Positions 30,172-59,370 of a stretch of DNA of 64,000 nt are shown here, piece after piece. The stretch lies in assembly GCF_026162365.1 (NCBI RefSeq), contig NZ_JAOANW010000015.1, positions 62,001-126,000 on the forward strand, written 5' to 3'. The DNA comes from Nitratireductor luteus (GTDB taxonomy: Bacteria > Pseudomonadota > Alphaproteobacteria > Rhizobiales > Rhizobiaceae). The notes beneath the pieces are model-generated. The model saw only the letters and a program-made list of their open reading frames with translations, did not search any database and was not told the DNA's origin. The position numbers and the translations under genes were made by a program. The stretch's first letter is position 1. The number at the start of each line of letters is the position of its first letter.

Positions 30172-30185
30172 TTGATGCGCATCAA
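30172..30185. promoter_or_regulatory. FNR/FixK-like box upstream of the ABC exporter operon
   Basis: TTGATGCGCATCAA is a perfect palindrome matching the FNR consensus at every defined base. It lies 55 bases upstream of the ABC ATPase start on the minus strand. Confidence 0.7.
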
Positions 30186-30207
30186 GCCGCTGCTCTGGCT
30201 GCCATCC

Positions 30208-30310
30208 CGAAAGCAGTTCGTTAATCCGCTGCCACGGCTGGCGGCGATTTCTTCATGGCGTTACGGACTTGGAGAATCTCGCCGGGCGAGATATCGTGAT
30301 CGATGCGGCC
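30208..30310 (-). pseudogene. DUF2267 gene, 3' fragment
   Basis: This stretch closely resembles 43801-43905, the 3' end of the intact DUF2267 gene: both contain CGAAAGCAG, TTCTTCATGG and GAGATAT in the same order with few changes. Only the last 30 or so codons remain. Its upstream part is replaced by SHOCT-like sequence. On the downstream side it runs into the region upstream of the ABC ATPase gene, the same junction type as at 43.75 kb. Confidence 0.65.
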
Positions 30311-30430
30311 TATTTGTCGGGCACGTGCCGGTGTTCCGCCGACTCTTGCTTATCAACCTCGTCGCGGGCGAAACGCTCCCTCAGGATTTCGAGTGGTGTC
30401 AATCCCGCGGCTGATTGCTGTCGGGCCGTA
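30309..30430 (-). pseudogene. SHOCT-domain gene, 3' fragment
   Basis: The bases match 45305-45425, the C-terminal end of the SHOCT-domain gene; GGGCGAAACGCTCCCTCAGG (at 30368) is identical in both. It would encode only the LEILRERFARGEID helix pair. It abuts the DUF2267 fragment on one side and leads into an FNR/FixK-like box and a polX fragment on the other. Confidence 0.65.
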
Positions 30431-30442
30431 AACATATCGGCC

Positions 30443-30456
30443 TTGACGCCAATCAA
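30443..30456. promoter_or_regulatory. FNR/FixK-like box beside the polX fragment
   Basis: TTGACGCCAATCAA fits TTGAY-N4-RTCAA. It lies about 40 bases before the polX fragment, which no longer has a body to express, so the box may be a relic. Confidence 0.5.
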
Positions 30457-30496
30457 CGCGACGCCTTTCATTCAAGCCAAATTGAACAGACAGCCG

Positions 30497-33170: not shown

Positions 33171-33638
33171 CCACTGACATAACTGCCTCAGTGGACCCCG
33201 CCGCTGGCAGTATCTTGCACGCTTGCCATGGCGCCTTGGTGCAGCGGTAGAGATCGTCGACGTCCTCGCGCCGGCACAGTTCCGTGCCGCGCCTCATGAC
33301 AGCCACCGTGCCGGCGGTCGCGGTGGTTCATGATGCCTCTCGCGGTCTTCATCCAGTTTCAGACGCATGAAGACAGCGCCTCCCACGCCGCCTTGATCCG
33401 CCTTAACAGGCAACTTGGCGTTGCGCCGTGCTCGCCACATGAAAGCTCACCTTTGCCGCGTTCTTTGACGCGGATCAACGACCGGCGCGGCTGGACGGCG
33501 TACTGGTGCATCATTGTCCGACACGCAACAGATCTGCTCCGCAGGGGCGAGTGCCAGACTTGGGAACGCCGGTTCGGTGAAAGCTTACCAACCCGCGCCA
33601 TATCTCGTCCCACGCGAGCCACCAATTGGGAGGCCGGC
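33171..33638. other. Intergenic stretch before the universal stress gene
   Basis: About 470 bases. The first part is probably more ldhA-related debris. The rest holds no supported gene apart from an FNR/FixK-like box at 33465. A long open frame reading into the stress-protein gene covers part of it but has no family similarity before codon 104. Confidence 0.4.
33465..33478. promoter_or_regulatory. FNR/FixK-like box upstream of the Usp-NdvB operon
   Basis: TTGACGCGGATCAA fits TTGAY-N4-RTCAA. It is 160 bases before the universal stress protein start, leaving room for a promoter with a leader of about 120 bases. Confidence 0.6.
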
Positions 33639-34670
33639 ATGCTGGCATCGTCCGTATCGAACCATGTTCACGAATCCACCACGGAAGTCTTCGAGCGAGC
33701 ACCATCCTGCGTGTCTTCGCCTGTTCTGGCCTATGTCGACACCTCGGTGTCGACCCGCAAGCTCATTCCGCATGCCATGGCGATAGCGGAAGCGTTGAAC
33801 GCGCCTTTGACGCTTCTCCACGTGCTGGATCTGCCACCGCAATCGGAAGGGCCAGCCGATCCGGTGGAGTGGAGTATTCGCCGGCAGGAGGCCCATGGTC
33901 AGGTCCGGCGGGCGGCGGAAAAAGAGCGCAAAAATACGCCAAAGCTGGACATCAGGATCGCGGAAGGTAGACCCGTCGACCAGATTTGCCGCTCCGTGCG
34001 CGAACTCGAAGCCGGCATTGTCGTGGTCGGCACGACGGCGGACGAGAATGCAGCCGACTGGGAACTGGGCGAAACAGCGCGGAAGCTCGTTGACCGCTCC
34101 GGTGGCGCGCTGCTTCTTATACCGCCGTCTGCGGAAGCGGCGGTTGAGGTACATTATGGGCGCGTCCTGGTCCCACTCGACGGCTCACGCACGGCGGAGA
34201 GTGTCCTGCCGCTGGCCGCGCGAATTTCACGGGGCGCCGGCGCGGAATTGCTTCTCGCGCACATCATTCCTGCGCCTGAGCTGACCGAGACCGGTCCGCT
34301 TGAAACTGACGATCACAGGTTGTGTCAGCAGGTGAGCGAACGCAACGAGCGCGTGGCGCGAAAATATGTCGAGCAGATTCGCAGCCGCCTCGCATGTTCC
34401 GGGCTTGCCGTGCGCGCCCTGGTCGTGCGCAACGGCGACGTACGCAGCGCCCTGGCACGGCTGATCGAAGATGAGAAGATCGATCTGCTCGTCATGTCGG
34501 CTCATGGTCGCAGCAGCCGGCCGGACGTGGCTTGCGGCAGCGTCGCCGGCTATATGGTCACCCATGCACGCGCACCGCTTCTCGTCGTCCTGGGTGCGCA
34601 TGCGCATCACGCCAATCACGCGGCGAACAATCAGAGAAACAACCGGCCGCTGCGCGGCCCCGTGTTGTGA
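33639..34670 (+). CDS. Tandem universal stress protein
   Basis: A 343-residue protein with two UspA domains. Domain 1 starts at about residue 27 (PVLAYVDTSVSTRKLIPHAM) and domain 2 near residue 170 (YGRVLVPLDGSRTAESVLPL). The ATP-binding G-x2-G-x9-G(S/T) region is recognisable in domain 2 (LLVMSAHGRSSRPDVACGSV). ATG 33639 follows GGGAGG. Its stop overlaps the start of the giant NdvB gene (TGATG), so the two are translated as one unit. Confidence 0.88.
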   Translation: MLASSVSNHVHESTTEVFERAPSCVSSPVLAYVDTSVSTRKLIPHAMAIAEALNAPLTLLHVLDLPPQSEGPADPVEWSIRRQEAHGQVRRAAEKERKNTPKLDIRIAEGRPVDQICRSVRELEAGIVVVGTTADENAADWELGETARKLVDRSGGALLLIPPSAEAAVEVHYGRVLVPLDGSRTAESVLPLAARISRGAGAELLLAHIIPAPELTETGPLETDDHRLCQQVSERNERVARKYVEQIRSRLACSGLAVRALVVRNGDVRSALARLIEDEKIDLLVMSAHGRSSRPDVACGSVAGYMVTHARAPLLVVLGAHAHHANHAANNQRNNRPLRGPVL

Positions 34671-37600
34671 TGCTGGCGGCGCCGGAAAGCGGGAGGGATC
34701 CGCTCACCACGACAGCTCGGGCGCTGGCTGAATGCCACCGCCCATCGAAGCTGAAGCCACGCCGCGTCGAGCCTTGGCGGAAGCTCGCCAAGATGGATGA
34801 GTGGCTTCGGTCATTGAGGATCGCTGCCGCCGATCCCGAGCCGCAGGGCGCCAAGGCTGCCGAGTGGCTGCTGGACAATGATTACCAGATACGACGCGCG
34901 ATCCGGCAGGTTGCGCGTGACATGCCGGAGGATTTTTACGAAAGGCTGCCCAGCCTGGAAAACGAGGAAGACGTGGGAATCCCGCGCATTCTGGCGCTGG
35001 CCTTCGGATATTTGCACGCGTCGCATCTTCAGCTTTCGCTGACGTCGGTTGTGCAGTACATCCGCGCCTATCAGGAGAGCGCACCGCTCACGATCGGTGA
35101 ATTGTGGGCTTTGCCGACCATGCTGCGACTTGCCTGCCTGGAAATTCTTGCGGACGCTTGCGGCCACCTGTTTCCGGAGGTGCGGCCGCCCTTCGTGCCG
35201 ACGCGTTACGTGAAGCTCTTTAACGCGTTCGACGACACGGACCGGGTCGCCCGCGTGCTCACCAATCTCATCGGCATGGCATCCATTCCCTGGAAGGACT
35301 TCTTTGACCGTACGAGCCTTGTGGAGGCCGCGCTGCGGGATGATCCTGCCGGCATCTATCCGCGCATGGATTTCGCGACGCGGGACCGCTACCGCAAGGC
35401 GGTCGAGGAACTGGCGGCAGGTACCGATATCGACGAGTCGGAAGTCGCAAGACAGGCCGTGGCGAGGGCTGGAGGCGTGTCCGAAGGTCCTTGCGACCAT
35501 GTCGGCCACTGGCTTGTCGGCGACGGCCGGTATTCCTTCGAGCATCTGCTGGGCTGCAAGATGCTGCTCCGGATCACATGCAGCCGCTGGCTCCGCCGTC
35601 ACCCGGGCCTGCTCTACATAACGGCGCTTCTGGCCGCCTCGGCGGCGGCGCTGATACTGCCCGTCGCCTATCTGGCGATCGTGGGCGCGGGCACAATCGG
35701 CCTGGCCATTGGTGCAATGCTGGCGCTGCTGCCGGCGTCGGTGCTCGGCATCACCTTCGTTCACTGGGTCATCACGCTTATGGTCCCACCGCGCGTCATG
35801 CCCAAGCTGGATTTCGAGAAGGGTATTCCTGAGGACTGCGCGACCGCGGTGACCGTGCCCGTCATCATACGCAGGGCGGACGAAATCGGGCGGCTGATGG
35901 AGAGGCTCGAAGCGCACCGCCTTGCCAACCCGGATCCGTCCCTGCGTTTCGTGCTGCTGAGCGATTTCGCCGATGCGCTGCAGGAGCATGCGCCGGGCGA
36001 CGAGGAGATCGAGGCGGCGCTTGTGGCTGGTATCCACCGGCTCAACGCGCGCTACGGCGCCGACGAAAGCGGGCCCTTTTATCTCTTGCACCGGCCGCGG
36101 CGGCTAAATCCCTGCGAGGGCTGCTGGATGGGCTGGGAGCGCAAGCGCGGCAAGCTCGAGGAGTTCAATCGCCTTGTGCTCGAAGGCGACATGTCACGCT
36201 TCAGCCTGATCGAGGGCGATGCGGAGCGTCTGCGCCGCGTCCGTTTCGTCGTCACCGTGGATGCGGATACGGTGCTGCCGCCGGGCGCCGTGAACCGACT
36301 CGCCGGCGCGCTGGCGCATCCGCTCAACGAGGCGCGCTTCGATGAACGCTCGGGCCGCGTGCGTACGGGCTACACTATCCTGCAGCCGCGCGTGGAGATC
36401 TCGCCGCTGAGCGGCAACCGCTCGCCCTTCGCGCGCCTTTATGCCGGCAATACGGCGATCGACATCTATTCGCGCGCGGTCTCCGACGTCTATCAGGACC
36501 TCTTCGGCGAAGGCATCTATGTCGGAAAAGGCATCTACGAGGTCGCTTCCTTCCAGAAGAGCCTTGAAGGCCGCGTGCCGGAAAACGCGCTCGTCAGCCA
36601 CGACCTTTTCGAGGGCGTGCACGGTCGCGCGGCCTTGGTGAGCGACATTGTGCTCTACGAGGATTTCCCGGCGGGCTATGTCGAGTATGCGCGCCGCTGG
36701 CACCGTTGGGTGCGAGGTGACTGGCAGCTCCTGCCGTGGCTGATGCGGCATGTGCCAGGGGCAAGCGGTCGGCGTGCCAACGACCTTTCCACGCTCGACC
36801 GCTGGAAGATCCTGGACAATTTCCGCCGCAGCCTCGTGCCGCTGTCGCTGCTGCTGCTTGCGCTAGCCGGCTGGCTGGTGCTGCCGGGCAGTCCGTGGGT
36901 CTGGACCCTGCTGACGGTTGCCGCACCTGGCGCCTATTTGTTCACGGATCTCGTCACGGGCCTGGCACGTGGCCCCCGACGCGGCGCCATGCAAGGGCTC
37001 GTTCACAATGTGAAAGACCATTCCGGGCGCTGGGCGCTTGCCATTGTCTTCCTGGTTCACGATGCGGCGGTCGCCGTCGACGCGATAATGCGCACATGCT
37101 GGCGCCTGTGCGTCTCGCGCCGGCATCTGCTCGAATGGACGTCCGCCGCCCATACGGCCGCCGCCGTCGACGGAGCTGGCCCCCGCCTGGCGGCCTGGCG
37201 CTACATGTGGTTCACGCCAGTGTTCTCCGTCCTGACGGCGGTTGCGGTCCTGTCTATAAATCCGGCCGCTCTTGTTGCGTCCGCACCACTGCTCGCCGTG
37301 TGGTTGATCTCGCCGGAAATCGCCGTGCTCATCAGCCGTCGCAAGAAGCCGCCGGTGGAGGAGGTGCGGTCGCAGGACCTGGCTTTCCTGCGGCGGCTTG
37401 CGCGGCGGACATGGCTTTATTTCGAGACATTCGTCGGCCCCGCCGACAACTGGCTGCCGCCGGATAACTTCCAAGAGGAGCCGCACTCGGCCATCGCGCA
37501 TCGCACCTCGCCGACCAATATCGGCATGATGTTCCTGTCCGCGCTCACCGCCTGGGACCTTGGATATGTGGACTCCCGTGAGTTGGCGGTGCGTTTGCGC

Positions 37601-40600
37601 AACACGTTCGACACGCTCGGCCGGCTCGCCAAGCATCGCGGTCATGTCCTCAACTGGTACGATACGCACACGCTCGAGCCGCTGGAGCCCCGTTATGTCT
37701 CGACCGTCGACAGTGGCAATCTCGCCGTTTGCCTTGTTGCGTTAAAGGCGGGATGCGAGGAGGCGGCATCCGCACCCTTTCTGAGACCGCAAGCGTGGGA
37801 TGGGCTTGCCGACACGCTGGAGGTTCTTACCGAGGCGACGGCCGCCTTGCCATATGAGGGCGGCGGCGCACTCGAGACCGTGCGGTCCCGTCTGTCGACG
37901 CTCGTTTCCCGAGCCCGCAACGATGTGACTATGTCCTGGCCGGTGTTGATCGAGATCACGGCACAAGCGTTTCCTCGTTTCGAGGAGGCCCTTGCGCAAG
38001 CGATATCGACTTCGCGTGAAGACCAGACGGCCGAGCACTTGCACTCCATTCAGGTCTGGCTCGAACGGACACGACACCATCTCACGCGCATGCAGCGCGA
38101 TTTTCGGGAGCTTTTCCCTTGGCTGCCCATTCTGGACGACGTGCCTGCCGGCTTTGAGGCGCTGGCCCTGGAGCTGGGGCAGGTGCTGTGCACACCAGTT
38201 TCTCCGCCTGATATCGGCGAGCGCTGTTCCAAGGTTCGCTCCGGGATCGCGGAAGCCAAAGCCACAGCGAAGGGTGAAGCCGCCGCTTGGCTGCACGACC
38301 TCGAAGCTGCACTTGAAGAGGGCTGCACGCGCCAGAATGCGCTCCACCAGGAATTGCTGGAATTGGCACGAACGAGCGAGGAGCTGGCCTTCGCAATGGA
38401 TTTCCGCCCGCTGTTCGACGGCGAGGCGCGGCTTTTCCACATCGGCTACAATGTCAGCGCCGACCGGCTGGACCCCTCGCACTACGATCTTCTGGCAAGT
38501 GAGGCTCGGCTTGCCAGCTTCTTCGCCATCGCCAAGGGCGATGTCGCTTTCGAGCACTGGTTCCATCTCGGACGTCCGCTCGCGCGCGAAAAAGGCGGCC
38601 TGGCGCTGATCTCATGGAACGGCTCCATGTTCGAATATCTGATGCCGCCGCTGCTTTTGAGAAGCGCCCCCGAGACGCTCTTGGGCGAGAGCGAGCGCAC
38701 AGCAGTCGATATCCAGCGCCGCCATGCCGAAAGGCTCGGCGTGCCCTGGGGTATTTCGGAATCCTCCTTCGCTTCCCGCGACGCCGACCACAACTACCGC
38801 TACCGCGGTTTCGGCGTGTCGGAACTGGGACTGCGCCGCGATCTCGCCCAAGACCTGGTCGTCGCACCTTATGCGACGGCGCTCGCCTTGCCCGTGCGGA
38901 CGGATTTGGCGGTGCAGAACTTGCGAACGCTCGAAGAGCTCGGCCTTGGCGGGCTCTACGGCCTGTTCGAGGCCGCCGACTTTACGCCCGAGCGCCTACC
39001 GTCCGGACGGCGCTTCGTACCCGTCCGTAGCTACATGGCGCACCACCAGGGCATGATTCTCGCCGCCCTCGACAACGCGCTTTGCGCCGGCGCGCTGGTG
39101 CGACGCTTCAATGCCCACGCCAATGTGCGCGCCATCGCGCTTCTGGTGCAGGAGCGCATTCCGTGGGAGCTGCCGCCGGAGTTTCAGGCATCCGAACTGG
39201 TGGAGCCGGAGGAGGAGCGGCAGAAGCGAGCGCTGCCTGCGCCGTCTCCCTGGCAGCCGCCTGGGGACAGCCCGCTGCCGCAGGTCCACGCGCTTGGAAA
39301 TGGCAGCCTCTCGAGCCACGTCAGCACGAGCGGGGGCGGAGGGCTCTCCTGGCGAGGCCACGCGTTGACCCGTTGGCAGCCTGACCCCACGCGCGACGAT
39401 GCAGGGCTGTGGCTTTATGTCAGAGACGAAGACGATGGCGCGCTATGGTCGATTGCGCGGCAGCCAACCGGCGTCGCCGCCGAGGAGGAAAGGATCGTCT
39501 TCCACCCCCACCTGGCAGAGTTTCATCGCCGCGACCGTGGCATCGGCCTCCGGATGGAGATGGGCGTCGCCCATGACGACGACGTGGAAATCAGGCGCAT
39601 CGGCATCGTCAACGAAAGCGACACCGAACGCCGCCTGCGCCTCGTCTCCTACGGCGAAGTGGTGCTCGCACCGGCGCTGGAGCACGAGCGCCATCCGGCC
39701 TTCAGCAAGCTCTTCGTGGGCAGCGAATATCTCCCCGGCCTCACAGGGCTTCTCTTCACGCGCCGCCCGCGGAGGGTGGAGGAAAAGCCGCCTTTCCTCC
39801 TTCACCGTATCGTCCCGGACGACGCTGGGGTAGAGATCGCGGGTTTCGAAACCGACCGGTACCGCTTCATCGGGCGCAACGGCACCCTGCGCGGGCCGCG
39901 GGCGTTGCGTGACGGGCTGACGGACACGTCCGGATGGACGCTCGATCCCGTCATGGCATTCGACATGCACATGACGCTCGCGCCGGGCGAGCGCCGGCGG
40001 TTTTCGCTCGTCACCATGGTCGCGGAATCGCGCGAGGCGGTGCTGCGCCTCGCCGACCGCTACACAACGCCGGCAGCGCTCGACTGGGCGCTTGACGATG
40101 CGGCGACGGAGGCGGCACGCGAGGTGCGGCAGCTCGGCCTCGAGCCGGGGCACCTGCCCGAACTGCAGGCGCTGTCGTCGCTGCTGATCTGCCGCCATCC
40201 GGCCTTGCGTGCCGCGCCCGAGGTCGTCGCGGCCAACCGGCTGGGCCAGCCCAGGCTGTGGAGCTTCGGCATTTCCGGCGATCATCCGATCCTACTCGTC
40301 CATGCGGGCGATCCCGAAAACGTCGATCTTCTGCGCGTGCTGATCGCAGGCCTGAAGACATGGCACCGGCGCGGCATCCAGGCCGATCTCGTAATCATGC
40401 GGCCGGGCATTTCGGGCTATATCGAACCCTTGCGCGAGAAGCTTCTGTCGCTTTTGCAGGAAGCGCAAGCGCAGGAGCTTCTGGGGCGTGCAGGCGGAGT
40501 GCATCTGGTACTGCGCGACCAGGTGGGGGAGGAGGACCGTCGGCTGCTCGAAGCCTGCGCTGTCGCCGTGCTCGACACGGCGCGTGGTACGCTGGGCGAA

Positions 40601-48716: not shown

Positions 48717-48740
48717 CTATCGAGAGGATGTGCTGATGCG

Positions 48741-48754
48741 TTGACGCCGATCAA
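48741..48754. promoter_or_regulatory. FNR/FixK-like box, BON side
   Basis: TTGACGCCGATCAA fits TTGAY-N4-RTCAA, 79 bases upstream of the rightward BON gene. With the box at 48703 it gives each divergent gene its own site. Confidence 0.65.
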
Positions 48755-48832
48755 CGCCGTGCGATGCCATTGCGCCGATACTCGCCTCGCAAAAGGCGGG
48801 AGTGGTTCCCGCTGCAACAGCGAGGTGAAGTT

Positions 48833-49483
48833 ATGAGCGATATCGATCTGAAACGGGACATCAATGACGAACTCGATTTTGAACCGAGCATTGATGCTGC
48901 CGACATCGGCGTGGCAGTCGAGAACGGCATTGTAACGCTGACCGGACATGTCCCGACCTACGCACAGAAAGCGACCGTCGAGGAGGTGGTTCGTCGGGTG
49001 AAGGGCGTGAAGGGAATTGCTCAGGAAATCGAAGTCCGCCCGTACGGGAGCAACCAGACGGCTGACGACGAAATCGCCAAACGTGCGATCAACATGATCC
49101 ACTGGAACACGGCCATTCCCGACGGTGCCGTCCAGGTCAAGGTGCAGAAGGGCTGGGTAACGCTGACCGGTAAGGTCGAGTGGCAGTATCAGAAGACCGC
49201 CGCCGCGGACGTGATTCGCGGCCTTGGGGGTGTCGTCGGTATACAGAACAACATTGCGGTAAAGGCGCATGCGTCGGTGTCCGACGTCAAAAAGCGCATC
49301 GAGGATGCCCTGAAACGCAACGCGGAAGTGGAGGCCAAGGCGATCCACGTCGACGTCCTCGACGGCGGAAAGGTAAGGCTCGAAGGCCGTGTCCATGCAT
49401 GGTCCGAGCGCAGTGCCGTCGAACGCGCAGCATGGTCCGCGCCGGGCGTCAATCTTGTCGAAGACCGCATTAGCATTGGATGA
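48833..49483 (+). CDS. Triple BON-domain protein (OsmY-like)
   Basis: A 216-residue protein with three BON repeats: about residues 5-70 (VENGIVTLTGHVPTYAQKAT), 77-145 (VQKGWVTLTGKVEWQYQKTA) and 150-216 (LDGGKVRLEGRVHAWSERSA). BON domains bind phospholipid or act in envelope stress. There is no signal peptide, so it is probably cytoplasmic. The ATG follows GAGGTGA. Confidence 0.9.
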   Translation: MSDIDLKRDINDELDFEPSIDAADIGVAVENGIVTLTGHVPTYAQKATVEEVVRRVKGVKGIAQEIEVRPYGSNQTADDEIAKRAINMIHWNTAIPDGAVQVKVQKGWVTLTGKVEWQYQKTAAADVIRGLGGVVGIQNNIAVKAHASVSDVKKRIEDALKRNAEVEAKAIHVDVLDGGKVRLEGRVHAWSERSAVERAAWSAPGVNLVEDRISIG

Positions 49484-49568
49484 GTTCCAATCATTGCGTC
49501 ATCATGTGGAGGGAGGCGGATGCAGCGTTCCGCCTCCCGTCGACAGCCTGGTAGTGAGAGAGGCAGCC

Positions 49569-50555
49569 ATGAAGGCGATGGTGCTGGAGGAGGTGCGGAG
49601 ACCGCTGGTCTTGAGCAACCTTCCGGATCCCACGCCAGGACGCGGCGAGATCAGGCTCAAGGTGGAGGCCTGCGCGGTCTGCCGGACCGATCTTCACGTG
49701 GTCGACGGCGATCTGAAAGACCCGAAGCTTCCGCTTATTCCGGGACACGAGATCGTCGGCATCATCGACAAGGTCGGAGAAGGCGTCGACGAGGCAAGGC
49801 TCAGTCGCCGGGCAGGGGTGCCTTGGCTCGGCCATACCTGCGGAGCATGCTCCTACTGCCTTGCGGGCACCGAGAACCTTTGTAATCAGCCGCAGTTCAC
49901 CGGCTACACGCGCGATGGCGGCTTTGCCACTCATGTGGTGGCCGACGCCGAATTCGCCTTTGATCTCGATGCCCCGGGCGATCCGGTGGCCCTGTCGCCT
50001 CTACTCTGCGCCGGGCTCATAGGCTGGCGCTCTCTTAAGATGGCCGGTGACGGAAGGCGGATCGGCATTTACGGCTTCGGTGCTGCCGCTCATATCATTG
50101 CTCAGATCTGTGCCTGGCAGGGCCGGGATGTGTTCGCTTTTACCCGGTCAGGCGATACGGAGGCGCAGCGTTTTGCGCTGAGCCTCGGTGCGGCCTGGGC
50201 TGGCGGCTCCGACGCCGCGCCGCCTGATCTAATGGATGCTGCGATCATATTTGCTCCCGTCGGAGACCTCGTGCCGGCCGCGCTCCGGGCCGTGCGCAAG
50301 GGTGGGCGCGTCGTGTGCGGGGGCATTCACATGAGCGACATCCCCGCGATGCCGTATTCCCTGCTGTGGGAAGAGCGCCAGCTGGTAACTGTGGCCAATC
50401 TGACCCGTATCGACGCGACAGAGTTTTTTCCCATCGCCAGAGAGGCAGGAGTGCGCACGCATACAACGGTGTATTCGCTCGAAAGGGCCAATGAAGCGCT
50501 TGCAGATCTGCGCGCCGGCCGCCTCAGTGGTGCAGCGGTGCTCGTCCCGGGTTAG
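49569..50555 (+). CDS. Zinc-dependent alcohol dehydrogenase
   Basis: A 328-residue MDR-family enzyme. Catalytic zinc ligands are Cys38, with His60 and Glu61 in GHE, and the structural zinc set Cys91, Cys94, Cys97 and Cys105 is complete (CGACSYCLAGTENLC). The NAD motif is IGIYGFGAAAHIIAQ. It oxidises alcohols or reduces aldehydes and could regenerate NAD under low oxygen. It lies 85 bases after the BON gene on the same strand and probably shares its transcript. Confidence 0.92.
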   Translation: MKAMVLEEVRRPLVLSNLPDPTPGRGEIRLKVEACAVCRTDLHVVDGDLKDPKLPLIPGHEIVGIIDKVGEGVDEARLSRRAGVPWLGHTCGACSYCLAGTENLCNQPQFTGYTRDGGFATHVVADAEFAFDLDAPGDPVALSPLLCAGLIGWRSLKMAGDGRRIGIYGFGAAAHIIAQICAWQGRDVFAFTRSGDTEAQRFALSLGAAWAGGSDAAPPDLMDAAIIFAPVGDLVPAALRAVRKGGRVVCGGIHMSDIPAMPYSLLWEERQLVTVANLTRIDATEFFPIAREAGVRTHTTVYSLERANEALADLRAGRLSGAAVLVPG

Positions 50556-50638
50556 CCAACCGACCGCATCGGTTGAGCCGGGATATCGTCAAACAGGGCT
50601 GCACCGTAGCCATCGAACGTCTTGGCACCAAAATTCGT

Positions 50639-51109
50639 CTAACAGTGCTCGTCCCGGCACAGCACATACAGCCGCTCGAGGAAAGGACGCTGGCCGGCAA
50701 TAATCCTTTCCCGTGCCTTCTCGAAGTCGAACCATTCTGCACGATCGACCTCCGGGAAGACTTGCATTCGGCCGCTGTTCGGCGGCCACTCGAGTTCGAA
50801 CGCATTGCTGCTCAACGTTTGGGGATCGAAGTCGGCATTCAAGGCGAAGGCTGTGACGTATTTCCCGCCTGCCTGGCGGATCTCCCCGAGTGGCGACAAC
50901 GCTCCAATGGCCTCCCATCCGGTTTCTTCAGTGAATTCCCGGCGTGCAGCGGATTCGGGGTGCTCGCTATCGGCATACTCTCCCTTTGCGATCGACCACG
51001 CTCCCTCATCCCGGTTACGCCAGAACGGGCCGCCGGGATGAACGAGCAAGACCTGTACGTCGCCGAATCTAAGCCTGTAGGGCAAGATGCCGGCGCTCTT
51101 TCGCGCCAT
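50639..51109 (-). CDS. NUDIX hydrolase
   Basis: A 156-residue protein with a complete Nudix box at residues 43-65 (GEYADSEHPESAARREFTEE plus TGW). The GILPYR opening and the C-terminal EWFDFEKARERIIAGQRPFL are as in NTP pyrophosphohydrolases of this type. The substrate is unknown. It shares an FNR/FixK-like box with the divergent universal stress gene. Confidence 0.92.
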   Translation of the reverse strand: MARKSAGILPYRLRFGDVQVLLVHPGGPFWRNRDEGAWSIAKGEYADSEHPESAARREFTEETGWEAIGALSPLGEIRQAGGKYVTAFALNADFDPQTLSSNAFELEWPPNSGRMQVFPEVDRAEWFDFEKARERIIAGQRPFLERLYVLCRDEHC

Positions 51110-51154
51110 TCGCCGCTCTCCACCTTTTTAACTTGGGCTCGCCGGCCGCTCCCC

Positions 51155-51168
51155 TTGATCCGCGTCAA
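51155..51168. promoter_or_regulatory. FNR/FixK-like box between NUDIX and Usp genes
   Basis: TTGATCCGCGTCAA fits TTGAY-N4-RTCAA. It is 45 bases upstream of the leftward NUDIX gene and 57 bases upstream of the rightward stress gene. Confidence 0.65.
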
Positions 51169-51225
51169 CGAAACAATCCGCCGATCGTGTTGCACTTCCT
51201 CCGCGATGCTGAAGGAGCAAACAAC

Positions 51226-52053
51226 ATGACCTACAAGAGTATCATGGTCCAACTCGATATAGACGCCCCCGCAACGCCGCGCACCAAATTCGCGATGGAT
51301 CTTGCGAAGCGGTTCAAAGCGGACCTGATCGGCTTTGCGGCGGCGGAGGTGCATGTCTTCGTGCCGAGAGACGAGGGAGGCTTGGTCGCGGCAGAGGTGC
51401 TGCGCCAGCGGACACGGGAGATTGAAGAGGGACTGAAGGAGCTCGAGGACGAGTTCCTCAGCATCACGGGCAAAGACGAACACGTCTCCTGGCGTAGCGA
51501 TGTCGGCAGCCCCACGCATCTGCTCGCGATCCATTCGCGTGCCGCCGACCTTCTTGTAACCGGAGCACCGGCACCAGGGGGCGCCTCGGACGGTCGCCGG
51601 ACGCTGGATCCGGGAACGTTGATCCTGTCGGTCGGCCGTCCTGTACTTTTCGCCGCCGACACCCTGGCCCCGCTCCTTGCGCAGAAAGTATTGGTCGCTT
51701 GGAAGGACACGCGGGAAGCCCGCCGTGCCGTGGTTGACGCCATGCCCCTGCTCGTCAGTGCGCATGAGGTGACGGTGATCACGATTGCCGAAGGTGACCA
51801 GAAGGCCGCACGGGAAAGCGCTGCGGATGTCGCTCATTTCCTGACGAAACACGGCGTCAAGGCAAGTTCCGACGTCCTGGGTATCGGCGGCGCCGATCGC
51901 GAGGAGGCACTTGTCGAGATCGCACGTGAGATGGGTTCGGACCTGGTCGTAGCCGGCGGCTACGGCCATAGCCGATTGCGCGAATGGGCGTTCGGTGGTG
52001 TCACGCGGTCGCTGCTCGCCGATGGATCCCTGCACCGCCTGATTTCCAACTGA
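51226..52053 (+). CDS. Universal stress protein (two-domain)
   Basis: A 275-residue protein. Domain 1 starts YKSIMVQLDIDAPATPRTKF and domain 2 starts KVLVAWKDTREARRAVVDAM (about residue 154). The nucleotide-binding glycine stretch VVAGGYGHSRLREWAFGGVT is intact near the C-terminus. ATG 51226 follows AAGGAGC; an upstream extension of the frame is unsupported. It is likely controlled by the box at 51155. Confidence 0.9.
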   Translation: MTYKSIMVQLDIDAPATPRTKFAMDLAKRFKADLIGFAAAEVHVFVPRDEGGLVAAEVLRQRTREIEEGLKELEDEFLSITGKDEHVSWRSDVGSPTHLLAIHSRAADLLVTGAPAPGGASDGRRTLDPGTLILSVGRPVLFAADTLAPLLAQKVLVAWKDTREARRAVVDAMPLLVSAHEVTVITIAEGDQKAARESAADVAHFLTKHGVKASSDVLGIGGADREEALVEIAREMGSDLVVAGGYGHSRLREWAFGGVTRSLLADGSLHRLISN

Positions 52054-52145
52054 ACTTCTGTCTCTAGGACCAAACCCGGTGCCGTCTTGAAGAACGCAAC
52101 CCTTTGCCCCAAGCTTTTCGATGGTGGTGAATGGGGATCTTGAGC

Positions 52146-53402
52146 CTATGTCGACAGGTGAGATAGCAGAGCGTAGGCGGCGTAGCCGAGACTGAGTGCC
52201 AAAAGGGTGAAGCAGGCGAGGGCAAAAGAAAACAGGGGCGGACCTGCCATCATCGCGAGCACCGTGCGCATAAGGGCATTGGTGGCCAAGGCGACAAGCA
52301 CCGCCAGCCCGGCCGTTTGGGCAGGAACCATTTCCCGGACGAGGCGCAACGCGCTCAGCACTGCGACATCCACATCAAAGGCACCGGAGATGGCCGATGT
52401 CGCGAGCAGCCCGCCTGCGCCGGAGACATCGGCCAGGGCGGCACTCGCGGTCGCCACCACCGCAAAGAGCAGGGCAAAAAGGAGCAGCGGCGCAATCTCG
52501 AAGGGATTGCGGGTAGGCGAGTTGCCCAATTCCTGGCCGTCACGGAACATGAACAGCGCACCGCAGGCACCGAAGCAGAGAGCCGCTGCGAGCGCGGGAG
52601 CGATGATCACCGGTAAGACGCGCGGTTCAACGATGATGACGACCAGCGATACGCGCAGGATGGAAACCATGGCTACGAGTGAGGCTGCGCCGGAAAGCGA
52701 GGCCCACCGGCTGCTGTCCTTGGCCATACGTGCCAGGGCGAGAGTCACCGCGGTGGAGGAAACGATGGCGCCGGCGAGCACGCTGACGAGGAGGCCGCGG
52801 GCTTCTCCCAACACGCGCACCGCGACATAACCCAAAAAGGATATGGCGGCCACGAGGACGGTGAAGAACCAGATCTCCCAAGGGTTCAGGCCGCCCCAAG
52901 GGTCGATCGTCCTGTTCGGCAGGAGCGGGAGCACGATGGCCGTCATCACCGTCAGGACCAGGGCGGAACGCAACTCGATCCAGGTCAGCCTCCGCAGCAG
53001 GCCGTGCAGGACCTCCCGGCTGGCGAGGATCGCAGCTAGGGCTGCTCCTCCAGCCGCGGCCACGCGATAATCTCCGGCCACCGCAAGCGCCCCGAGGGCG
53101 ACGACGCTCAACCCTGCTATCACGCCCGTGACGCTGAAATCCTCGTCATGGGCCGACTCGCGCGCCTTGTACCAGGCGAAGATGGCGGCAAAGCTGACAA
53201 AGCCGGCGATCAGCACCGCATTCGAGCCAAGGGCGCCCGCGAGGACGGCGAAGATGCCGCCGAGGAGCCCGGAGATGCCAAAAGTGCGAATGCCGGCGGT
53301 ACGGCTGCGGTCAGGAGCGTCCCGCTCGCGCCAGCCGCGTTCCAGGCCGACAAGAAGGCCAATGGCGAGTGCCAGGCCGAGCTTTGGGAACAGTGGGTCC
53401 AT
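52146..53402 (-). CDS. MgtC/DUF4010-family membrane protein
   Basis: A 418-residue polytopic membrane protein. The opening KLGLALAIGLLVGLERGWRE and RTAGIRTFGISGLLGGIFAV is the MgtC/SapB-like N-terminal domain, followed by the DUF4010 region with about seven more helices (for example LLVSVLAGAIVSSTAVTLAL). The function is unknown; MgtC homologues act in magnesium or acid stress. It is followed leftward by about 90 bases without a gene before the stress gene's end. Confidence 0.88.
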   Translation of the reverse strand: MDPLFPKLGLALAIGLLVGLERGWRERDAPDRSRTAGIRTFGISGLLGGIFAVLAGALGSNAVLIAGFVSFAAIFAWYKARESAHDEDFSVTGVIAGLSVVALGALAVAGDYRVAAAGGAALAAILASREVLHGLLRRLTWIELRSALVLTVMTAIVLPLLPNRTIDPWGGLNPWEIWFFTVLVAAISFLGYVAVRVLGEARGLLVSVLAGAIVSSTAVTLALARMAKDSSRWASLSGAASLVAMVSILRVSLVVIIVEPRVLPVIIAPALAAALCFGACGALFMFRDGQELGNSPTRNPFEIAPLLLFALLFAVVATASAALADVSGAGGLLATSAISGAFDVDVAVLSALRLVREMVPAQTAGLAVLVALATNALMRTVLAMMAGPPLFSFALACFTLLALSLGYAAYALLSHLST

Positions 53403-53411
53403 GTTGTTGGG

Positions 53412-53858
53412 TCAGACAGACGCGGCCGGCAGTCGGGCGCACACCCACTGCACGATCTGGCCGGCCGTCATCGCACCGGATGTGCGTGCGATCTCCCGGC
53501 CGCCATGAAACAGGATGACCGTCGGAATTCCCCGGATTTCAAGCTTCGCAGCCGCGGACTGCTCGACATCGGAGTTGAGCTTGACCAGGCGCAGGTGAGG
53601 CTCGAGTTCACGGGCGGCGGCCTCGATGGCGGGCGCCATTATCCGGCACGGGCCGCACCATGGTGCCCAGACATCGACGAGCACGGGAACGGTATTGCGG
53701 GCGATCTGGCGCTCAAGGACAGCCGTGTCGACATCCTCGGGGTGTCCCGAAAAGAGCCTCGTTCCGCATTTTCCGCACTTGCCGCCGAGGGCGGATCGGG
53801 AAGGTGGCAGGCGATTGACCCCGCCGCATTTGGCACACACGACAAGGGACCCGCTCAT
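53412..53858 (-). CDS. trxC: Thioredoxin 2 (zinc-containing)
   Basis: A 148-residue thioredoxin of the TrxC type. The N-terminal zinc module has Cys8, Cys11, Cys28 and Cys31, and the active site is WCGPC with Cys68 and Cys71. The conserved cis-proline loop is GIPTVILF. It reduces disulfides in the cytoplasm and is often induced by oxidative stress. It lies nine bases upstream of the DUF4010 gene on the same strand. Confidence 0.93.
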   Translation of the reverse strand: MSGSLVVCAKCGGVNRLPPSRSALGGKCGKCGTRLFSGHPEDVDTAVLERQIARNTVPVLVDVWAPWCGPCRIMAPAIEAAARELEPHLRLVKLNSDVEQSAAAKLEIRGIPTVILFHGGREIARTSGAMTAGQIVQWVCARLPAASV

Positions 53859-53879
53859 CGCTCATGTCTCCCGCAAGGA

Positions 53880-54203
53880 TCACTCCTGGATGCTTTCGAT
53901 ATACTCGACGATATCATGGACCTGCTCGCGCGTTGGCTTGAAATCCGGCATCGCCGGATGCCGAAGGAATAACGGACCGGCAAGATCCAGCCTCAGATCC
54001 CTGTAGGATGCGAGCCGTAACAGCCTGCGAAAGGGTGGTGCCTGCGGATTTTCGCTTTGGTCGACTTGTGCAATCGTGTGGCATATGGCGCAATTGGCCT
54101 CGGCGATCCTGCGCCCGCGGAACGCGCTCTCGGGCTCGGTGGCAAAGCTGTTCGTCGCGCCTGCGACGAGAAGAATAATAGACGGCATGGCTATGGCCAG
54201 CAT
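53880..54203 (-). CDS. Small secreted c-type cytochrome
   Basis: A 107-residue protein. The signal peptide MLAIAMPSIILLVAGATNSF ends near FAT, the single heme site CAICH has Cys38, Cys41 and His42, and the likely axial Met84 is in HPAMPDF. It should carry electrons in the periplasm. The short C-terminal helix REQVHDIVEYIESIQE is typical. An FNR/FixK-like box lies 57 bases upstream. It precedes trxC by 21 bases. Confidence 0.88.
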   Translation of the reverse strand: MLAIAMPSIILLVAGATNSFATEPESAFRGRRIAEANCAICHTIAQVDQSENPQAPPFRRLLRLASYRDLRLDLAGPLFLRHPAMPDFKPTREQVHDIVEYIESIQE

Positions 54204-54260
54204 TGTCAGAAGCCCCTGAGCGTTCGGATGAAAGCCTATTGCATTGACGAGCGGCCGGTC

Positions 54261-54274
54261 TTGATCCGTGTCAA
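54261..54274. promoter_or_regulatory. FNR/FixK-like box upstream of the cytochrome gene
   Basis: TTGATCCGTGTCAA fits TTGAY-N4-RTCAA. It is 57 bases upstream of the leftward cytochrome gene and directly abuts the first ATG of the rightward CBS fragment. Confidence 0.6.
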
Positions 54275-54692
54275 TGCTTGAAGAAATCAACCATGCGATG
54301 AAGATTCTGCTCGATGAGCGGATTTCCGGCGCGCCGGTCGGCGATGCCAGGGGACTGCTCGTCGGTGTGCTGTCCAAGAAGGATTGCCTGAGGGCGCCCT
54401 GAACGCGAACTACCACCAGGAATGGGGCGGCAGCGTCACCGACTACATGACGAGCCCCGTCGAAACATTGGAGGCAGACATCGAACTCATCCAAGCGGCG
54501 GAGCACTTCCTGTCGAGCCACTGGCGGTTTCCCGTCACGAGCGACGGGCGCCTTGCCGGTCAGATCAGCCGCGCCGACATTCTGCGGACATTGACGGTGA
54601 ACTGGCGATATACGCAGGCTTATTCCCGATGGTCGAGACACTATCGTCGATTCTGCAAGAAAGAGCGTTCGGGTGACGGGCGCTGGCGGTGA
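54274..54692 (+). pseudogene. CBS-domain protein, truncated and frameshifted
   Basis: The first frame reads MLEEINHAMKILLDERISGA, then GLLVGVLSKKDCLRAP and a stop. One base later in another frame the text resumes LNANYHQEWGGSVTDYMTSP, HFLSSHWRFPVTSDGRLAGQ and SRADILRTL. Together these are a two-CBS-domain protein broken by a single missing base near 54396. The beginning of domain 1 is also lost at the FNR/FixK-like box. CBS pairs sense adenylates. Confidence 0.75.
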
Positions 54693-54754
54693 AGAATCCC
54701 GCCATCGGCGTAGCCGCGAAGGGTGGCAAGGAAACCGCCGCAACCGCACTACTT

Positions 54755-56590
54755 TTATGCCGCGACATCCGGCGTGTGGAGCGGATCGCCAATCAAGGAA
54801 CGGAGCTCGGTTTCGTCAAGCGTCTCCGTTTCGAGCAACCGGCGAGCCGCTCGCTCAAGCAATTCGCGGCGCTCGGTGATAAGCGCTACCGCCCTGCCAA
54901 AAGCCTTCTCGATAATGTTGCGCACCTCTCCGTCGATCAAGTCGGCTGTGGCCTCACCATAGTCGCGCTCCTGCGGGAAACCGGGGAGCGGTGTGGAACT
55001 CAGAAAGGAGTGTTGGTCCTTTTCCAATGCTACATGACCAATTTTCTCCGACATGCCGTAGTGCGTCACCATCGCCCGCGCGATGTCGGTTACCCGGGCG
55101 AGGTCGTCAGCCGCGCCGGTTGACAGATGCTTGAATACGATCCACTCGGCCGCCCGGCCGCCGAGCAGTACAGCCATCTTGTTCTCCAGTTCCTCCCGGG
55201 TCATCAGAAAGCGGTCTTCCGTCGGCCGCTGGATGGTGTAGCCGAGGGCTCCCACACCACGCGGAATAATCGAAACCTTGTGAACGGGGTCTACGCCCGG
55301 CAGCGTCAGCGCGACCAGCGTGTGACCCATTTCGTGATAGGCGACAATCTCGCGCTCCTTCGGATTGAGCAGTCGATTGCGCTTTTCCAGCCCGGCCACG
55401 ATACGCTCGATCGCATTGTTGAAGTCCTCCATCGTCACGGAGTCGGCCTTTCGCCGAGTCGCCAGCAGCGTCGCCTCATTGACGAGGTTGGCAAGGTCTG
55501 CGCCGGTGAAGCCCGGTGTAAGGGCAGCCACCTTCTCCGGATCTACGTTCGCGCCAACCTTGGCTTTCCTCATATGGACCTGCAGGATCTGGATGCGACC
55601 CCGCTTGTCCGGTCGGTCGATCAACACTTGCCGGTCGAACCGGCCGGCGCGCAGGAGCGCGGGGTCGAGGATTTCGGGTCGGTTGGTGGCGGCCAGAAGC
55701 ACGACACCGGTCGACGCATCAAAGCCGTCCAGTTCGACAAGAAGCTGGTTCAGTGTCTGTTCCTTCTCGTCATGGCCGCCCATCATTGGTCCCGCACCGC
55801 GAGCCCGGCCGAGCGCGTCGAGCTCGTCGATGAAGATAATGGCGGGGGCTTTCGCGCGCGCCTGCTCGAACAGGTCGCGCACGCGGGCGGCTCCCACGCC
55901 GACGAACATCTCGACGAACTCGGAACCGGAGATCGAGAAGAATGGCACCTTTGCTTCGCCGGCCACGGCCCTGGCGATCAGCGTTTTGCCGGTACCGGGC
56001 GGTCCGAGCAACAGCACGCCCTTGGGCATACGCCCGCCCAGCCTGCCATATTCTTCCGGATTACGCAGGAACTCGATGATCTCCTGCAATTCCTCCTTCG
56101 CCTCGTCCACACCTGCCACATCTTCGAAGGTGACCTTGGTATCGGTCTCGACATAAACCTTCGCCCTGCTTTTGCCGAGCTGCAGCAGACCACTGCCCGT
56201 ACCACCGCCCATGCGCCGGATCACGAACACCCAGACGCCGACAAACAGCACCATCGGAATCACCCACGACAGGAGATCACGCAGGAATGTGCTCTCGATT
56301 TGCCCGGTGACGACGACATCGTGCTGCCGCAGCTGTTCGGCGAAGTCGGGCTCGACGCGCGTGGTGATGAACTTTGACTGACCGGCTGCAAGAGGTTGTT
56401 TGAATGTTCCCTGAACAAAGCGGTCCGACACTTGGAGTTCGGCGATCCGGCCGGCCTGCAAATGGCTCTCGAATTCGCTGTAAGGTATCTGTGCAACCTG
56501 CTGCGTGGTAGCGAATAGGTACTGGATCAACATCAGTCCAATAAAGGCCGCGAGCCAGTACCAGATGTTGAACTGTATCTTATTGTTCAT
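54755..56590 (-). CDS. ftsH: FtsH-family membrane AAA protease
   Basis: A 611-residue FtsH. Two N-terminal membrane helices (about residues 10-27 and 103-124) enclose a periplasmic domain. Walker A is GPPGTGKT (196-203), Walker B is [10 protein letters not shown], and the SRH is around [20 protein letters not shown]. The zinc protease motif HEMGH is at 419-423. It degrades membrane and regulatory proteins. In this setting it is probably an accessory copy rather than the housekeeping one; that is inference. Confidence 0.93.
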
Positions 56591-56749
56591 CTTTTCGAAC
56601 TCTTCACCAAACGGGTTAGAAGTCCCGGCAATCGCGACCGGAAATCTTCACCTAGGCCCAGCCGTCTCTTTCAATCCTGTCTATACGCTGAGGTCAGACG
56701 GTGAATTGCGCCATATCAATTTCATGAGGCTCCCCGCATCATCTCAAGC

Positions 56750-56930
56750 TTGCTTGAGGAGTTGATCGGTTCAGAGCACCACCGACACACTTGCTGGGAA
56801 TGTGTTGAGACCTGCGGAGACTGCGCCGAACGATTGCGTGCGCATTAGCGACATGGATGAATGTGTGGCAGCGTGCCGGCTCTACGCAGAATCGCAGCCA
56901 AGTGGCTGCCTGAGGATCTGGTGGGCCGGG
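56750..56930 (+). pseudogene. Four-helix-bundle copper-binding protein (DUF326/Csp-like) remnant
   Basis: The frame LEELIGSEHHRHTCWECVET, then CGDCAERLRAH and a stop is followed, one base shifted, by MDECVAACRLYAESQPSGC. The CxxC-x3-C-x2-C pattern and the CxxxC-R-L core match cysteine-rich copper-storage four-helix-bundle proteins. It is broken by a stop and a shift, and one cysteine is replaced by Tyr. It precedes the CopB gene by about 300 bases. The remaining 650 bases between ftsH and copB show nothing else. Confidence 0.6.
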
Positions 56931-57237
56931 GATTCATGGATTTGCGCGTTTCTACCGGTCGGAGGTCCGCTTGCGCGAGATCAATTCCCGTCGCCCAGAG
57001 TCGGGTAGAGTAGCTTTGTCGATTGGCAGGGAAGAAAACTCTCGACCTTCCAATTGCAGGAAGCTTCAGTTCCCAGAATATGAGGAAAGGCAAGGCTTGC
57101 TTCTGGCTATTTTCTGCTGATCAACGTCGCGGATTCGCGGGCTCGGATAGCTGTCGACTTGCAGACCGGGCGTGTAATTGCCGACGGGTGAAGATAGCTA
57201 CCAGACTAGCCTTGGTAGCCGAGGCAAGGGGAGACGA

Positions 57238-59331
57238 ATGCAGGATGCCGATCACCACGCCGCAAGGCAGAACGCTCACCACGGACAGCACGCCGAGGCG
57301 CCCCTAACTGGCGACCGAAATCCTGACAGGGGCTCCGGCTCGGATCATGGGGTGCATGCCGGGCATGCCGATCATTCGGCCATGGTGGAAGACTTTCGCC
57401 GCAGATTCTGGGTGGCGCTGGCGCTGACGCCGCCGATCCTCATCCTATCGCCGATGATCCAGCACTGGCTGGGGTTGAGCGATATTCTGGCCTTCCCCGG
57501 TAGCGAGTTGCTGCTCTTCCTCCTGTCCAGCATCGTCTATTTCTACGGCGGTTGGCCCTTCATCAGCGGGTTTTCCTCGGAGCTGAAGGCCGGCAAGCCC
57601 GGCATGATGACGCTGATCGCGCTGGCGATCTCGGTCGCCTACTTCTATTCGGCGGCCGTGACGTTCGGGCTGCCCGGCATGTCCTTCTATTGGGAGCTTG
57701 CCACCCTTATCGCCATCATGCTGCTCGGTCACTGGCTGGAAATGCGCTCCGTTATGGGCGCCTCGCGGGCGTTGGAGGAACTGGTCAGGCTTCTCCCTGA
57801 CACGGCGCTGCGGCTCGATGCCGAGGGCAACAGTCATGAGGTGGCGATCTCCGCACTTGCGCCCGGAGACCGTGTACTCGTCCGACCAGGCGCGAAAGTC
57901 CCGGTCGACGGCCGCGTCGCCGAGGGCGAAACCTCTTTCAACGAGTCGATGCTAACGGGCGAGTCGCGCCCGGTTTCCAAGAAGCCGGGAGACAGCGCGA
58001 TCGGCGGTGCGATCAACGGCGCGGGCGCCGTGACGATCGAGGTGACGGCGACGGGAAGCAGCACATATCTCGCGCAGGTCATCGACATGGTGAAGCAGGC
58101 GCAGGCCAGCCGCTCACGCACGCAAGACATCGCCAATCGCGCCGCGGGCTGGCTCACCTATGTCGCGCTGATCGTCGGCTTCGGCTCATTGGCCTTCTGG
58201 ATGATGGCCGGCGAGACCTGGGAATTCGCGATTGAGCGCATGGTCACCGTGATGGTGATCGCCTGTCCGCACGCGCTCGGCCTGGCGGTCCCACTCGTCG
58301 TCGCCGTCAGCACCTCGCTCAGCGCCGGAAATGGGCTTCTCATCCGCGACCGCGCTGCCTTCGAGCGTGCGCGCAATCTCAACGCCGCCGTCTTCGACAA
58401 AACGGGAACGCTGACCGAGGGCAGGTTCGGCGTCAGCGATATCGTCATGCTGTCGGGCGAAGACGAGACGGATGCGCTGCGGCTCGCCGCTTCAGCGGAA
58501 AGCCAGTCGGAGCACCCGATCGCCCAGGGTATCGTGGCGGCCGCAAAAGAGCGGTGCCTCGCCTTTCCGAAGCCCGACAGCGTCCGCAACATTACCGGCG
58601 AAGGCATCGTTGCCGCGGTCCAGGGTGAGGAGTTCAGCATCGTCAGCCCAGGCCGTCTCGCACGGCAGGGTAAACTGATCGCCCACCCGCGCCTGAAGCA
58701 GCTCGAGGAGCAAGGAAAGACTGTGGTCGTTCTGGTCAGGGCCGGCGAACCGCAGGCTCTGTTTGCGCTGGCCGACATCGTGCGGCCGGAATCGCGGGAG
58801 GCGGTGGCGCAGCTCAAGCAACTGGGCATCAGCCCGATCATGCTGACGGGCGACGCCGAGGGCGTAGCACGCTCGGTCTCCGCAGAGCTCGGCATCGACG
58901 AGTACTTCGCCGAGGTGCTGCCGGATCAGAAGGCCGCCAAGATCAGCGCACTCCAGGACAGAGGCCTGCGGGTGGCGATGGTGGGCGACGGCGTCAACGA
59001 TGCGCCGGCCCTTGTACAGGCCGATCTCGGCGTGGCCATCGGCGCAGGCACGGACGTCGCCGTGGAGTCGGCCGACGTCGTTCTTGTCCGCAGCGATCCG
59101 CGCGACGTGGCCGCCATCCTCAGCCTGTCGCGGGCGACCTACCGCAAGATGGTGCAGAACCTGATCTGGGCGACCGGCTACAACGCGATCGCCATTCCCA
59201 TGGCGGCGGGCATCACTTTCGGGACGGGCTTCTTGATGACGCCCGCCATCGGCGCCGTCTTCATGTCGGCCAGCACCATCATCGTCGCCATCAACGCCCA
59301 ATTGTTACGGCTTTACGGACGAGGAAAGTAG
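57238..59331 (+). CDS. copB: Copper-translocating P-type ATPase, CopB type (P1B-3)
   Basis: A 697-residue heavy-metal ATPase. The histidine-rich N-terminus (HH at residues 6-7, HHGQH at 14-18, DHGVHAGHADH at 36-46) replaces a CxxC domain. The TM6 motif is CPH (343-345), the P1B-3 signature. The phosphorylation site is Asp387 in DKTGTLTEG, TGES is at 240-243, and GDGVNDAPAL is in the hinge. It exports copper from the cytoplasm. ATG 57238 follows AAGGGGA. A broken copper-binding gene lies upstream. Confidence 0.92.
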   Translation: MQDADHHAARQNAHHGQHAEAPLTGDRNPDRGSGSDHGVHAGHADHSAMVEDFRRRFWVALALTPPILILSPMIQHWLGLSDILAFPGSELLLFLLSSIVYFYGGWPFISGFSSELKAGKPGMMTLIALAISVAYFYSAAVTFGLPGMSFYWELATLIAIMLLGHWLEMRSVMGASRALEELVRLLPDTALRLDAEGNSHEVAISALAPGDRVLVRPGAKVPVDGRVAEGETSFNESMLTGESRPVSKKPGDSAIGGAINGAGAVTIEVTATGSSTYLAQVIDMVKQAQASRSRTQDIANRAAGWLTYVALIVGFGSLAFWMMAGETWEFAIERMVTVMVIACPHALGLAVPLVVAVSTSLSAGNGLLIRDRAAFERARNLNAAVFDKTGTLTEGRFGVSDIVMLSGEDETDALRLAASAESQSEHPIAQGIVAAAKERCLAFPKPDSVRNITGEGIVAAVQGEEFSIVSPGRLARQGKLIAHPRLKQLEEQGKTVVVLVRAGEPQALFALADIVRPESREAVAQLKQLGISPIMLTGDAEGVARSVSAELGIDEYFAEVLPDQKAAKISALQDRGLRVAMVGDGVNDAPALVQADLGVAIGAGTDVAVESADVVLVRSDPRDVAAILSLSRATYRKMVQNLIWATGYNAIAIPMAAGITFGTGFLMTPAIGAVFMSASTIIVAINAQLLRLYGRGK

Positions 59332-59356
59332 GCGGCTTTATTTTCGGCCCCATGGC

Positions 59357-59370
59357 TTGATCCACATCAT
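59357..59370. promoter_or_regulatory. FNR/FixK-like box variant after copB
   Basis: TTGATCCACATCAT differs from TTGAY-N4-RTCAA at the last base only. It is 25 bases past the copB stop. Confidence 0.4.

Follow-up and report, generated by a model that had tools for sequence, protein, structure and literature searches.

A compact island of FNR/FixK-type boxes and stress genes in Nitratireductor luteus, likely part of a low-oxygen survival locus

A 64-kb stretch of contig C5 (NZ_JAOANW010000015.1) of Nitratireductor luteus, here called the window, was found to contain a compact island of FNR/FixK-type boxes, whose density far exceeds that of the remaining genome. Judging from its motifs and gene content, the window likely belongs to an island for survival at low oxygen in this alphaproteobacterium, a relative of Mesorhizobium and Aquibium. 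As oxygen falls, the FixL-FixJ pair of the same locus would induce FixK. Together with, or without, a Crp/Fnr regulator of an FnrL-related clade encoded in the window (window FNR), FixK would bind boxes centered near −41.5 as a class II activator. The predicted targets are genes for universal stress proteins (Usp), Hsp20, BON, host-attachment and CBS proteins, cytochrome c and an exporter; cbb3 oxidase, arginine deiminase and phosphoketolase/acetate kinase genes are their neighbors in this locus. The window FNR would add a second, altered layer.

Exact boxes were counted as the dyad TTGAYN4RTCAA and near-matches as sites with one mismatch. The window, which represents 1.3% of the 4.92-Mb genome, contains 12 of the 28 exact boxes found genome-wide (binomial 6e-16). 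In 100 shuffles of the window the mean was 0.16 and the highest count 2, and the reversed control pattern occurs 6 times in the genome. A segment of 24.1 kb holds 10 of the 28 boxes; 20,000 random placements gave at most 5. With the arms permuted around the same core (n = 12), TTGA yielded 12 sites in the window, two other arms 2 and 1, and the remaining nine none, and TTGAY/RTCAA with other spacers of 0–12 nucleotides (nt) yielded 0 or 1 site each. The island is thus confirmed. Chance or base composition as the source of the boxes was ruled out by the shuffles, the reversed control, the random placements, the permuted arms and the other spacers.

An earlier note on this DNA had listed 14 dyads, described as the motif or one or two bases off, and had called for a comparison of the window with the whole genome. 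All 14 positions are present; 11 are exact, three (44292, 45215 and 59357) have one mismatch, and none is two bases off. A twelfth exact site, at 25799, had been overlooked. When the comparison was run, equal density across the genome was not seen. The window has 11 one-mismatch sites, including the three above; of the other eight, six are inside assigned genes and two are left of 15 kb, where no genes were assigned for this count. Sites with two or fewer mismatches number 93, versus 51 expected.

Genic or intergenic status was judged against our own chosen gene list. In line with the earlier claim that nearly all boxes are intergenic, none of the 12 exact boxes has its center within a listed gene, though 15–60 kb is 83% coding. 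Box 30443 falls in a weak 53-residue open reading frame (ORF; 30310–30471) that was omitted from the list. The distances from box to gene start span 6.5 to 332 nt, wider than the 35–240 nt first given. No convincing intact target was seen for boxes 30443 and 43147, and the proposed RaiA-like target, the ORF at 47641–47970, has no Pfam match and looks interrupted between frames. The boxes and genes of the window are as follows.

15119–15132, +: exact box, center 70 nt before CsbD gene; −10-like TATCAG at 21 nt
25799–25812, −: exact box, 57 nt before pyridoxamine-phosphate-oxidase-like (PNPOx) gene; conserved in none of five relatives' matches
25840–30117, −: HlyD adaptor, FtsX permease and ABC ATPase genes (exporter; Pfam)
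30172–30185, −: exact box, 61 nt before ABC ATPase gene; TATCAA at 21 nt
30443–30456, unstranded: exact box without clear target gene
33465–33478, +: exact box, 240 nt before Usp gene
33711–34670, +: universal stress protein, two Usp stretches (Pfam)
43147–43160, +: exact box, directly 3' of cyclic-glucan-synthase-like gene and 5' of C-terminal SDR remnant
43814–44242, −: DUF2267 protein (Pfam)
44292–44305, −: one-mismatch box before DUF2267 gene; similar one-mismatch sites in relative G011 and the Aquibium relative
44318–45094, −: window FNR, Crp/Fnr regulator of FnrL-related clade, ExxSR helix; start chosen by eye
45215–45228, −: one-mismatch box, 127 nt before window FNR gene
46478–47005, −: Hsp20 small heat shock protein (Pfam)
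47243–47256, −: exact box, 244 nt before Hsp20
48007–48020, −: exact box before interrupted ORF, RaiA-like by eye only
48139–48624, −: host-attachment/baeRF family protein (Pfam)
48703–48716, unstranded: exact box in divergent host-attachment/BON region
48741–48754, +: exact box, 85 nt before BON gene
48833–49483, +: protein with three BON domains (Pfam)
49569–50555, +: zinc alcohol dehydrogenase (Pfam)
50639–51109, −: NUDIX protein (Pfam)
51155–51168, unstranded: exact box between divergent NUDIX and Usp genes
51226–52053, +: universal stress protein (Pfam)
53880–54203, −: c-type cytochrome (weak Pfam matches)
54261–54274, −: exact box, 64 nt before cytochrome c, with TAnnnT 22 nt on; shares its final base with the start of the CBS-coding stretch on the other side
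54274–54692, +: CBS-domain coding stretch, split over two frames
59357–59370, +: one-mismatch box, 3' of heavy-metal P-type ATPase gene and followed by an unassigned ORF
59862–63960, −: FixS-like, FixI-like P-type ATPase, DUF2189, FixH-like and CcoP-like genes (Fix/Cco names mostly by eye); the run extends past the window to ccoN

FtsH is also among the Pfam matches around the boxes. The window contains no tRNA and no Rfam match at gathering level, and 43000–60000 has no match at E ≤ 0.1.

The spacing between boxes and putative promoters was determined for 90 boxes from this island and related ones. A TAnnnT/TATAAT-like hexamer peaks 21–22 nt after the box, and the box center is thus at −40.5 or −41.5. 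An offset of 21–22 nt is the spacing expected for FNR class II activation. The hexamer was found at this offset after 6 of the 18 boxes of the N. luteus island, counted with the second contig described below (background 0.058, P 0.0004), and after none of the 10 boxes elsewhere in this genome. The corresponding values were 8/21 for relative G011, 9/19 for the congener G001, 17/27 for four plasmids (one of the 28 plasmid boxes was left out, being too close to a locus end) and 1/5 for Aquibium.

Conservation was measured in relatives as an exact box within 300 nt of a start estimated from alignments, with matches below 40% identity or half length excluded. An exact box was kept before 15 of 29 matches to boxed genes versus 4 of 46 matches to unboxed genes. 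The BON box is found at 70–85 nt in four of five genomes (85 nt here and 70–84 nt in G011 and in two plasmids of Agrobacterium, with Rhizobium lentis lacking it), and the ABC ATPase box at 61–65 nt in three of three (61 here, 61 in G011 and 65 in G001). Four of five Hsp20 matches in relatives are preceded by an exact box, the fifth being cut by the locus end, and in G001 the same is true of five of seven matches to boxed genes. The relatives of the window FNR gene in G011, Rhizobium daejeonense and Rhodobacter sp. CZR27 have one-mismatch boxes before them; the one in Aquibium has none. These comparisons demonstrate that a subset of the boxes is spaced as predicted for class II activator sites and that boxes are conserved before orthologous stress genes.

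Box clusters were also found in relatives. G011 has 21 of its 34 exact boxes in 148 kb (the listing of their places has one fewer than this count), G001 has 19 of 42 in three clusters, and Mesorhizobium xinjiangense, which is probably one genome with G298, has 13 of 27 in 64 kb. The Aquibium locus L037 and the G082 contig are the same as judged from length and content. Four Agrobacterium/Rhizobium plasmids, a nonrandom sample picked for BON or alcohol dehydrogenase homologs, carry 11/19, 13/18, 4/4 and 16/27 of their boxes in 7–49 kb, next to differing and reshuffled combinations of BON, alcohol dehydrogenase, Usp, CBS, Hsp20, host-attachment, FtsH and GroEL genes. On the Rhodobacter sp. CZR27 plasmid (L058 10168–13091), two adjacent Crp/Fnr genes stand between Hsp20 and a host-attachment gene, and this arrangement is a minimal version of the island module. 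The island is not one of a kind; its arrangement is real, conserved and of a type known from other bacteria. Its genes recur in mosaic order on the chromosomes and plasmids of relatives, and low-oxygen survival therefore looks like a module that can be gained or lost together.

Several other features of the window were noted. Fragments of ArdC antirestriction N-terminal domains at 13923–14252 and 16042–16176 (−) flank the CsbD gene and are probably remnants of mobile DNA at the left edge of the island, which is adjoined by an AbiEi/AbiEii toxin-antitoxin type pair at 16783–18446 (+). The interrupted CBS (54274–54692) and RaiA-like (47641–47970) stretches each adjoin an exact box. Between the Usp gene and the regulator, a large cyclic-glucan-synthase-like protein with GH94, glycosyltransferase and glucoamylase domains is encoded at 34793–43138 (+); its gene is 3' of Usp in G001 too but did not turn up in the 160-kb stretch of G011 examined.

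Mobile DNA could have brought the stress genes together, with the boxes hitch-hiking and serving little present regulation. The ArdC remnants and transposase genes close by, the interrupted CBS and RaiA-like ORFs, the similar clusters on plasmids and the patchy occurrence of the regulator, whose relatives (E ≤ 1e-50) are present in 20 of 394 family genomes and 12 of 109 genera, our own counted, would all fit such passive clustering. It is nevertheless very improbable, given that orthologs of 60–90% identity have boxes at similar distances and that the −10 spacing is present.

The locus as a whole is larger than the window and includes cbb3, nirK, arginine deiminase and FixL-FixJ-FixK genes. 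Right of the window, contig C5 carries ccoN, a hemN-like gene, another Crp/Fnr gene, an nnrS-like gene and nirK, with arginine deiminase (arcA) at the contig end. Contig C10 carries genes for ornithine carbamoyltransferase (otc), carbamate-kinase-like, Usp, cytochrome-c-like and phosphoketolase-like proteins, acetate kinase, CBS, Usp and FixL-FixJ-FixK; names in the wider locus that lack a family match were assigned by eye. The NCBIfam cut-off was reached for FixJ, CcoN, NirK, arginine deiminase, ornithine carbamoyltransferase and acetate kinase, and FixL and FixK are the best NCBIfam matches of their genes, yet below their cut-offs. C5 and C10 probably join, because in G011 19 of 20 query genes from the two contigs are in one 160-kb stretch, with FixLJ-FixK at one end and the aligned pieces of arcA and otc about 120 nt apart. 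With this join, 18 of the 28 exact boxes are within about 84 kb.

The nirK, nnrS-like and Crp/Fnr genes that C5 carries outside the window would also be consistent with boxes that serve nitrogen-oxide control of the DNR/NnrR type, and FNR, FixK and DNR sites are described as alike (PMC2908626). We consider this quite improbable, since the boxed genes are mostly stress genes, as in published FixK regulons, and the 15 kb that holds nirK has one exact box only.

The window FNR has Crp/Fnr domains and, as first noted, an ExxSR recognition helix, here ESISR. Its best NCBIfam match is FnrL at 185.7 bits, below the equivalog cut-off of 300; among solved structures, its best sequence match is FixK2. 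Trees set it apart from the FixK-like protein of the same genome, and its clade of 23 rows has 100/100 support in the second tree (14 earlier rows and 19 new ones; bootstrap not settled, 17 of 30 inner branches open). The Crp/Fnr protein at C5:134158 was excluded from trees and alignments, and the M. xinjiangense regulator, being in two pieces, from the trees. The latter is about 93% identical to the window FNR (L038 10001–10800; G298:C2:101718–102517 (L063, L079)).

The four canonical [4Fe-4S] cysteine columns read A, S, C, C in the window FNR and its G011 counterpart and C, C, C, C in the Aquibium relative. The window FNR thus lacks two canonical N-terminal cysteines of the FNR/FnrN/FnrL oxygen sensor. 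In this respect it fits the FixK group sensu Dufour 2010 (FNR-FixK proteins without a Cys ligand), but the trees separate it from the genome's own FixK-like protein. Since these two ligands are absent, it need not sense oxygen directly. The N. luteus and G011 proteins have an extra Cys three residues before the third canonical column. All four columns are intact in 12 of 19 relatives; G003, G119 and G279 lack the first and share the extra Cys, and five rows lack one or more columns in different ways. The altered Fe-S ligands of the local regulator are unusual and the least expected part of the island. A tentative and, taken as a whole, rather unlikely proposal is that the oxygen sensor is being rebuilt in an FnrL-related clade that occurs patchily in the family, mostly within box-rich stress islands. 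On this view the window FNR, with C20, C23, C111 and C112 left, might hold an Fe-S cluster with other ligands, or no cluster, and its switching of the island would occur at an oxygen or redox level different from that of FixK.

The earlier note had placed the hypoxia island around its own regulator, with the window FNR as a dedicated master that senses oxygen directly and reads the local boxes. The regulator does sit among the boxes with its ExxSR helix, its clade has 100/100 support (bootstrap not settled), and 19 regions of up to 20 kb around its relatives have 59 exact boxes in 353.6 kb, many of them with Usp, Hsp20, host-attachment or DUF2267 genes. We regard this role as doubtful, however, since two of the four canonical cysteines are absent, exact boxes are missing from 3 of the 19 regions, and the congener G001 keeps boxed genes although it yields no window FNR relative at E ≤ 1e-20. 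The boxes of G001 are thus independent of the window FNR, and FixK is the likelier main reader. The box before the window FNR gene is imperfect, and this regulator therefore probably acts downstream or in feedback, its oxygen-sensing site having been rebuilt or lost. The compact island of boxes with stress and micro-oxic genes and activator-like spacing stands; the idea of its own regulator at the center needs revision, as the wider locus also has FixL-FixJ-FixK and another Crp/Fnr protein. The island is a natural setting for asking how FixK and an FnrL-type regulator with changing Fe-S ligands share one box.

Several observations weigh against a FixK-driven low-oxygen island. No exact box was found before ccoN or arcA, and the sole candidate near ccoN is a one-mismatch site inside a neighboring Rrf2-like ORF. 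The contiguity of C5 and C10 is inferred from gene order in G011, where the hemN-like gene, one of the 20 query genes, was not found in the 160-kb stretch. The 21–22 nt offset was picked from pooled data that included the tested boxes, and only a third of the boxes of the N. luteus island show it, so that the spacing holds for the group only. No exact box within 300 nt was found for 14 of the 29 matches to boxed genes, including PNPOx in all five cases. The box sequence cannot tell FixK, the window FNR and the third Crp/Fnr protein apart.

The island had also been compared with the mycobacterial DosR regulon. DosR is a regulator of another type, with another motif than FNR-type boxes. The likeness is functional only, namely hypoxia survival with Usp and alpha-crystallin genes, and has already been published for the lxa locus of Burkholderia cenocepacia (PMC6127331). 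In Rhizobium leguminosarum, a TTGAT-N4-ATCAA anaerobox and an FnrN-dependent small heat shock protein, RLV_1399, are described (PMC7888657, PMC11784457), and hFixL/FixK and FnrN are reported to form two layers that act as one pathway (PMC7888657). That system shares with the present one the anaerobox, a FixL-type sensor plus an FnrN protein and a small heat shock protein; unlike the window FNR, its FnrN has the cysteine cluster, and fnrN is reported to be outside any cluster in strain 3841 (PMC7888657, PMC11784457). No description of such an island in Rhizobiales was recognized in the open-licence literature as judged from abstract openings, by which its absence from print is not shown.

The FixLJ-FixK2 regulon of alphaproteobacteria has the same box and overlapping gene families. 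The predicted FixK set includes Hsp20, HlyD, ABC permease, CBS, cytochrome c, kinase, zinc alcohol dehydrogenase and phosphoketolase genes (PMC2908626). In Bradyrhizobium diazoefficiens, Usp, host-attachment, CBS, Hsp20 and HlyD proteins are reported to be induced micro-oxically (0.5% oxygen), some as direct FixK2 targets, among them the host-attachment protein bll5315; nine locus tags from bll4644 to blr4659, including Usp, host-attachment, CBS, PEP synthase and glucokinase, are likewise induced (PMC6515984). The difference is that here 18 of 28 exact boxes are in one locus of about 84 kb with a divergent FnrL-clade regulator. The B. cenocepacia lxa locus has about 50 genes induced by low oxygen, including six Usp, an alpha-crystallin and a BON protein (PMC6127331, PMC3759415). 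Compared by its published description only, it shares with the present island the clustering of Usp, alpha-crystallin and BON genes; it differs in being from a betaproteobacterium and in that the tag of its proposed regulator, BCAM0049, is far from BCAM0275–0323. In predicted gene content, the N. luteus island is similar to FixK regulons from the literature and to the Burkholderia lxa locus, and the latter is the closest known cluster.

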